Part shown: positions 57,693-58,703 of the stretch, in pieces
Position numbering within the stretch: the first letter of the stretch is position 1
How the letters are laid out: the number at the start of each line of letters is the position of its first letter
Source of the DNA: a virus
DNA length: 64,000 nt
IMG/VR virus record: IMGVR_UViG_3300047550_003584
Location: 1-64,000 of that record
Strand: one strand, 5' to 3'
Translations under genes and position numbers: made by a program
Notes under the pieces: model-generated
What the model was told of the DNA's origin: nothing
The model's database searches: none
The model's input: only the letters and a program-made list of their open reading frames with translations

Positions 57693-58584
57693 TCAGTCAC
57701 AACGCACCCAAAACGATCCATTACTACTTGGTACGTTTAGCCAGACTACGCTGCGCTATTTGAAGGGTACGCTTGGTGCTCAATACAAACCAATTGGACG
57801 TGCGGATACCAGGCAAATCTCTAACGGTGGTATTGGCGGCGGTACTTACAACCACTGGTTCCAAGTCAATTTGACTGAGCCAGCTTGGATTATCTTGACA
57901 AAAGGACCGCCGCGCCCCAAGTACATTCAAGTTTCCGCATACGATCTCAATAAGACTCCAATCCAGGGAGATCCTATATTTGATGCAGATTCTGTTCAAT
58001 CGTCAACCAACGGAACGCGTTATATCCCGTATTTAGATACGGTGATGAGTGTCCAGTCGGATCTTTATAACACCTTTGATCGTTTACGTCTTGATCGTGG
58101 TGATGACCGCTACTTCCCCCTGGAAACAGGTAGCTATCTCATCTGTGTTTCATCAACGCGCAATGAACCCCTTGCATACGAGCTTGGTGTTGTCATTGAG
58201 TTTCCAACGGATGAAGCGTTCTTTGAGCTGGAAGATGTTGATGGTAGTGTTTGCTTACAAGAAACTGAAATTGACGCCGCCGAAATTGTTGGACCTATCC
58301 TTGTTGATACTGTTATTAGCGCCAATGCTTTTTCTGAAACAAGCTGTGAGATTGCAGCAGGCGTGACGGTGACCGTGAATCCAGGTATTACTTGGCTGAT
58401 CGGCGAGCGTATCCCTGCTGCAGACTACGACAACTATAAAATTATTCTTGAGGTAGGCGATGATGCGTATTACAACACAGTACATGATCATTCCTTGTCA
58501 GAATGGCAGAATGCATGGGAGAGGGAACATCAAGACACTGATCGATTCCCTGAACTCTTTGTTCCTTTAACGAACAGACCATGA
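57673..58584 (+). CDS. virion structural protein, beta-rich
   Basis: 303 residues from ATG 57673. GGGTYNHWFQVNLTEPAWII, YIQVSAYDLNKTPIQGDPIF, RLDRGDDRYFPLETGSYLIC. All-beta, with a galactose-binding/jelly-roll look; likely tail or tail-fibre attachment protein. Coupled by ATGA to the CP12-like peptide. Confidence 0.65.
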   Translation: MSRSALSQSQRTQNDPLLLGTFSQTTLRYLKGTLGAQYKPIGRADTRQISNGGIGGGTYNHWFQVNLTEPAWIILTKGPPRPKYIQVSAYDLNKTPIQGDPIFDADSVQSSTNGTRYIPYLDTVMSVQSDLYNTFDRLRLDRGDDRYFPLETGSYLICVSSTRNEPLAYELGVVIEFPTDEAFFELEDVDGSVCLQETEIDAAEIVGPILVDTVISANAFSETSCEIAAGVTVTVNPGITWLIGERIPAADYDNYKIILEVGDDAYYNTVHDHSLSEWQNAWEREHQDTDRFPELFVPLTNRP

Positions 58585-58703
58585 TTAAATTTTTGTTAAA
58601 CCTGTTTAAAAAACCTGTAGCAAAACATTCGCCTGCACTAGCTTGGGCACAGTATTGTGTTAGTAATCCAAGCGCTCCTGACTGCCGTATTTACGATGTC
58701 TGA
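58581..58703 (+). CDS. CP12-like mini peptide
   Basis: 40 residues, ATG 58581 overlapping the upstream stop. After a short amphipathic start (IKFLLNLFKKPVAK) it reads YCVSNPSAPDCRIYDV. This equals the C-terminal redox loop of CP12, with Cys, eight residues including N-P, Cys-R, then Y-D/E. CP12 uses the loop to bind GAPDH and switch off the Calvin cycle. The N-terminal half of CP12 and its PRK-binding part are missing. Confidence 0.65.
   Translation: MIKFLLNLFKKPVAKHSPALAWAQYCVSNPSAPDCRIYDV

Follow-up and report, generated by a model that had tools for sequence, protein, structure and literature searches.

An acidic residue at the end of CP12 holds an arginine that NADPH would use. In the oxidized state, the C-terminal tail of CP12 enters the active site of GAPDH (PMC4436894, PMC10253348), and residues 58-78 of Arabidopsis CP12 are ordered on the enzyme as a helix (Pro59-Asp66), a loop (Asn67-Arg74), and a tail (Thr75-Asn78) (PMC10253348). 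Synechocystis CP12 without its N-terminal (phosphoribulokinase-docking) cysteine pair is similar to the wild type in growth with glucose and NAD(P)H re-oxidation, and CP12 without the C-terminal (GAPDH-docking) pair does not work like the wild type, the latter pair being the important one in this species (PMC9623430). The C-terminal unit also occurs alone as a module in the extension of plant GapB and in the tails of ADK3 and argininosuccinate lyase, and the units of GapB and ADK3 have been reported to bind GAPDH (PMC9406205, PMC4436894). Cyanophage proteins resembling the CP12 C-terminus are already known (PMC3906501, PMC9406205), and in Prochlorococcus infected in the light, few phage genes are expressed as strongly as cp12 (PMC5082946).

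The DNA analysed here (the window, 64,000 nucleotides) comes from a virus record with a length of 76,776 bases and carries a gene for a 40-residue peptide, mini-CP12, which keeps the C-terminal unit of CP12 and lacks the rest of the protein. Like the modules of GapB, ADK3, and argininosuccinate lyase, it consists of this unit without the remainder of CP12, but those are covalent enzyme tails, whereas mini-CP12 is predicted to be a free peptide acting in trans. The features of the locus are as follows.

57640..58584, + strand: upstream coupled gene, 314 aa, conserved neighbour of mini-CP12 (23 relatives, alignment)
58581..58703, + strand, stop included: mini-CP12 gene, 40 aa (ORF, Pfam CP12, homologues, dN/dS)
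58581..58616, + strand: N-terminal basic amphipathic segment MIKFLLNLFKKP, residues 1-12 (hydrophobic moment, predicted helix, dN/dS)
58638..58700, + strand: putative CP12 C-terminal GAPDH-binding unit, residues 20-40 (Pfam, PDB CP12 chains, predicted helix)
58696..58824, + strand: overlapping small acidic gene downstream, 42 aa (also in the closest relatives, L191-L196 and L203, with 42-46 aa)
58860..59024, + strand: small downstream gene, 54 aa (conserved in S-EIV1-like contigs)

The 40-residue peptide and its match to CP12

The translation of 58581-58703 (+ strand), MIKFLLNLFKKPVAKHSPALAWAQYCVSNPSAPDCRIYDV, contains the residue pattern C26-x2-N29-P30-x4-C35-R36-x-Y38-D39, i.e. the C-x8-C loop with N-P and the terminal C-R-x-Y-D that the first-pass annotation had described. 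Its start codon shares bases with the TGA of the 314-residue gene upstream (ATGA, 58581-58584), and its stop codon lies just inside the following ORF, which begins with the ATG at 58696. These overlaps on both sides suggest a layout as in a translationally coupled operon. A promoter scan identified sites no more numerous than in shuffled sequences.

The CP12 profile search proposed in the same annotation gave a C-terminal match: Pfam CP12 (PF02672) aligned to residues 15-39 with 26.2 bits (E 1.4e-5), covering only positions 46-70 of the 70 profile positions and exceeding the curated gathering cut-off of 22.7 bits. Scores of 28.1, 34.8, and 28.5 bits were obtained for the relatives in phage S-EIV1 and in contigs L204 and L211, respectively. 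Considering how many ORFs the window contains, the E-value of the 40-mer by itself is modest, and the case rests on the family. When a profile of 42 family members was compared with all PDB chains, CP12 chains were the seven best matches (E 8e-10 to 5e-6), always at the CP12 C-terminal end, and the next matches were ADP-ribosyl cyclases (E 0.012). The proposed homology to the GAPDH-binding end of CP12 is thus borne out by both the Pfam match and the profile search. In PDB 3zdf, which contains a cyanobacterial-type GAPDH and a 23-residue CP12 chain, 11 of the 19 aligned residues of that chain are identical to those of the 40-mer. The search of PHROGs with the 40-mer gave a weak match to an unnamed family, phrog_627 (positions 52-74 of 75, E 0.0076), and the NCBIfam search gave no match.

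When aligned on the cysteines, residues 58-78 of Arabidopsis CP12 correspond to residues 20-40 of the 40-mer, and the unit can be divided into a helix extending to S28, a disulphide loop (C26-C35), and a tail (I37-V40). The AlphaFold model, based on 39 sequences, contains a helix at residues 18-28, with a mean pLDDT of 90 for residues 21-30; its end at residue 28 is the equivalent of Asp66, where the Arabidopsis helix ends. A fold search with this model gave a PDB CP12 chain as the top match, with a non-significant E-value of 1.9. No cysteine precedes C26, so that the N-terminal cysteine pair of canonical CP12 is absent, and the AWD_VEE core motif is absent from all 40 residues, the Pfam match beginning at profile position 46.

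The first-pass annotation had regarded the peptide as a stand-alone loop. The CP12 unit is indeed present, but the peptide is more than a loop and begins with a conserved segment of ~12 residues that is basic and amphipathic. This segment is absent from known CP12 and does not resemble a CP12 remnant. The helical hydrophobic moment averaged 0.54 over 20 non-redundant N-termini, compared with 0.32 in shuffles (z 6.4), and the median net charge ahead of the CP12 unit was +4; the AlphaFold model of the 40-mer contains a second helix at residues 2-8. The segment is probably no substitute for the PRK-binding domain, because that domain has AWD_VEE and a cysteine pair. The CP12 chains solved with cyanobacterial GAPDH in 3zdf (23 residues) and 3b1j (25 residues) cover nearly the same stretch as the phage keeps, but they are host CP12 fragments in a crystal and do not have an amphipathic N-terminal segment.

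The CP12 proteins of T4-like cyanophages (66-83 aa; best PHROG, phrog_627) resemble mini-CP12 in being phage-borne and in possessing the C-terminal unit with both cysteines. Known cyanophage cp12 had been taken as full-length in the first-pass annotation, but 88 of the 90 T4-like forms among the matches listed have no upstream cysteine and none has AWD_VEE, in agreement with reviews (PMC3906501, PMC9406205); both features are also missing from mini-CP12. The two forms differ in that T4-like CP12 spans positions 3-70 of the 70-position Pfam profile, whereas the mini form spans only 46/47-70. In addition, the unit is preceded by an acidic, helical part of ~50 residues in T4-like CP12 and by a basic amphipathic N-terminus in mini-CP12, and the terminal residue is usually D in the former and usually V or I in the latter. 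Canonical cyanobacterial CP12 (72-105 aa here) shares the C-terminal GAPDH-binding unit, but the nine cellular CP12s with the same ending contain AWD_VEE (9/9) and mostly the upstream cysteines (7/9), whereas mini-CP12 contains neither. None of these nine cellular genomes provides a cellular counterpart of the mini form, as each of them encodes full-length CP12.

Distribution and conservation in viral contigs

A first DNA pattern (Y-C-x2-N-P-x4-C-R-x-Y-D/E) was found in at least 120 stretches of viral contigs, and most of the matches listed code for the longer CP12 (66-83 aa) of T4-like cyanophages. A second pattern, ending in Y-D-(V, I, A, T or M) and a stop codon, was found in 81 stretches. 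From both patterns and the loci found by synteny, ~46 distinct short homologues of 37-45 aa with the same plan were identified among the matches listed; two 46-aa look-alike forms (L019 and L040) have no ATG at their start. In nearly all contigs with enough upstream sequence, mini-CP12 lies directly downstream of a homologue of the 57640-58584 gene.

Since the DNA patterns demand both cysteines, conservation of the cysteines required a separate test, and a cysteine-blind scan with the upstream gene alone was performed, which yielded 23 loci. The next ORF is mini-CP12 in 18 of these and is absent in five. Both cysteines, with eight residues between them, are kept in all 18 synteny-found loci (14 distinct peptides), so that the cysteine conservation in relatives on which the first-pass annotation had made its proposal depend is present. 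The mini-CP12 gene is therefore accessory, and its loop is intact where the gene is present. One of these loci, L211, has a probable GTG start, Q in place of N29, and the canonical ending Y-D-N, and would be missed by the pattern. In L204, the CP12 unit is kept and the N-terminus is different, being charged and non-amphipathic; the amphipathic N-terminus is thus not universal in the family. In the 42 aligned members, Y25, C26, N29, P30, C35, R36, and Y38 are invariant, most of these having been demanded by the search pattern. Among the 46 short peptides listed, the penultimate residue is D or E in every case, and the peptide ends in V in 30 cases and in I in 9 (39/46), compared with N or D in canonical CP12.

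The dN/dS ratio, calculated from 123 pairs of close relatives that are not independent of one another, was ~0.19 over the full length of the peptide; the last 21 codons gave 0.165 and the N-terminal part gave 0.21, which indicates that the N-terminus is also constrained. A chance match to CP12 is ruled out by family, synteny, and selection, i.e. by the ~46 homologues at one genomic position, the retention of the cysteines in 18/18 loci, and this ratio, and the ORF at 58581-58703 (+ strand) is a real gene. Truncation or frameshift of a canonical CP12 in one genome is likewise rejected, because ~46 distinct peptides share the short form, which begins at the stop codon of the gene before it. These data demonstrate the homology, conservation, selection, and fixed gene position of mini-CP12. 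No second, full-length CP12 was detected elsewhere in the 18 records searched, many of which are fragments and four of which gave no CP12 match at all.

Several other viral contigs (L041, L090, L055, L112, L125, L046, L129, L100, L162, L018, and L049) encode short proteins of 42-64 aa in which unrelated N-termini precede the C-terminal unit of CP12, suggesting that reduction of CP12 to this unit has occurred in phages more than once. In L116, the frame of a T4-like phage CP12 (from base 627, reverse strand) is open into a structural-looking protein, with a total of 921 aa, representing either a fusion or a sequencing error.

Gene neighbourhood and phage context

The isolate most closely related to the virus is Synechococcus phage S-EIV1 (KJ410740, in which the name is given as S-EIVl), which comes from a high-arctic lake. 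The window belongs to an S-EIV1-like freshwater cyanophage, its host being presumed from S-EIV1. A block comprising a primase, speD, a glycosyltransferase, and the 314-residue gene is common to the window and S-EIV1. In the latter, an unannotated 45-residue ORF, MRFYNWLICKLFKRCEIEIIKSPTAAFKSYCEENPSSRSCRIYDV, fills the gap between AHV82134 and AHV82133. This S-EIV1 ORF and three genes of the window are listed below.

L002:5938-6075 (KJ410740 about 5931-6068), - strand: S-EIV1 mini-CP12 ORF (CP12, 28.1 bits)
53545..53895, + strand: speD, S-adenosylmethionine decarboxylase (Pfam AdoMet_dc, E 3.7e-36)
28664-29302: ThyX, a nucleotide-related gene of the genome
27406-27810, + strand: protein of 134 residues, N-terminal zinc ribbon similar to that of NrdR (Pfam PF22811, E 9e-10, the only family match)

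The product of the upstream 314-aa gene had been taken as a virion protein, an assignment that is unproven, as the gene has no Pfam or NCBIfam match; its predicted model is beta-rich and of low confidence, and a fold search returned weak beta-sandwich matches. The first-pass annotation had placed the peptide beside no other metabolic genes; one such gene, speD, is located 5 kb upstream in the same orientation. It belongs to the same conserved block as mini-CP12, and this block is kept in many mini-CP12 contigs. AHV82133 (L221:5040-5930), beside the S-EIV1 copy, is annotated as PurM, but no Pfam family matched it with an E-value of 0.01 or lower; we regard this annotation as doubtful and dropped PurM as metabolic context. 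The product of 27406-27810 is possibly a phage regulator of nucleotide reduction. Both S-EIV1, in which it has been annotated, and the window (43069-43611, + strand) encode a ferritin-like (Dps-type) protein.

Proposed action on Gap2 and alternative readings

We consider it likely that mini-CP12 is a minimal phage CP12 stripped to the unit for binding photosynthetic GAPDH (Gap2), which inhibits Gap2 without recruiting phosphoribulokinase (PRK) and is perhaps held at a membrane. The 40-mer, which ranks with the smallest forms of CP12 seen, probably shuts down carbon fixation; from its homology and the literature, we infer that it would bind and inhibit GAPDH, respond to redox state, and contact a membrane. 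During infection, the oxidized peptide would occupy Gap2, in competition with host CP12, and the Calvin cycle would be slowed, so that NADPH, ATP, and the flux of pentose phosphates would be available for the synthesis of nucleotides, a demand which ThyX and the NrdR-like zinc ribbon protein fit. The peptide would inhibit Gap2 alone and would not build the GAPDH-CP12-PRK complex, because the N-terminal cysteine pair and AWD_VEE, the parts that bind PRK, are absent. The suggestion that the peptide is a reduced version of the cyanophage cp12 strategy is to this extent supported by homology. A basic amphipathic make-up is that of peripheral membrane-binding helices, and the N-terminus would most likely keep the peptide at the membrane surface, this being the least certain step of the proposal. 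In Synechocystis in the light, ~40% of the CP12 C-terminal pair is oxidized and 59.4% is reduced (PMC13214033), so that the phage peptide could act in daylight. The Chlamydomonas equivalent of its penultimate acidic residue contacts a GAPDH arginine (PMC4436894). Several points argue against the proposal: the terminal V or I in place of N or D could weaken the contact with the coenzyme site, oxidized Arabidopsis CP12 alone barely inhibits GAPDH in the absence of PRK (PMC3838966), the match of the predicted model to a CP12 chain is non-significant, and the amphipathic N-terminus is not universal. A more specific version, in which a membrane-tethered, PRK-free CP12 captures and blocks Gap2 at the membrane and the V/I tail alters the competition with NADPH, is tentative and rather unlikely as a whole; if correct, it would be a Calvin-cycle brake whose wiring is, to our knowledge, unlike that of any cellular CP12.

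The presence of the GAPDH unit without a recognizable PRK-binding part, together with the requirement of the CP12 N-terminal domain for PRK recruitment (PMC10253348, PMC9623430), would also agree with a peptide that acts mainly by dislodging host CP12 from Gap2, which would keep PRK from being locked in the GAPDH-CP12-PRK complex, rather than by inhibiting Gap2. We regard this as improbable, as occupancy of Gap2 is expected to inhibit the enzyme as well and known phage CP12 is thought to be an inhibitor (PMC9406205). Somewhat less probable still is that the CP12 unit serves as a tag by which host GAPDH is docked at a membrane or another site determined by the amphipathic N-terminus, with some effect other than a halt of the Calvin cycle. 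The binding of GAPDH by the CP12-like tails attached to ADK3 and GapB (PMC9406205) and the basic, amphipathic N-terminus under selection are in line with such a role, but the peptide has no second functional domain, there being only ~12 residues besides the linker, and L204, with its swapped N-terminus and retained CP12 unit, suggests that the latter is the essential part. That the unit binds a target other than Gap2, either another enzyme or a metal, its resemblance to CP12 being inherited but put to a new use, seems very improbable: metal binding is among the other properties reported for CP12 (PMC3906501) and the terminal residue is unlike that of canonical CP12, but none of the synteny-found loci has lost the disulphide loop, and the penultimate residue is acidic in all 46 short peptides.

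Inhibition of Gap2 by a PRK-independent minimal CP12 is thus the reading that we prefer. In the open-access literature, we found no description of a free CP12 of 37-45 aa with an amphipathic N-terminus at a fixed S-EIV1-like locus. The sequence data indicate that S-EIV1-like freshwater cyanophages, including the isolate S-EIV1 itself, carry a putative inhibitor of carbon fixation that has been overlooked by annotation. The 40-mer is small enough to be synthesized and assayed directly on cyanobacterial Gap2, and it may serve as a compact tool for slowing the Calvin cycle. Mini-CP12 represents a natural minimal test of whether the CP12 C-terminal unit, without PRK recruitment, would be enough to redirect the carbon metabolism of the infected cell.
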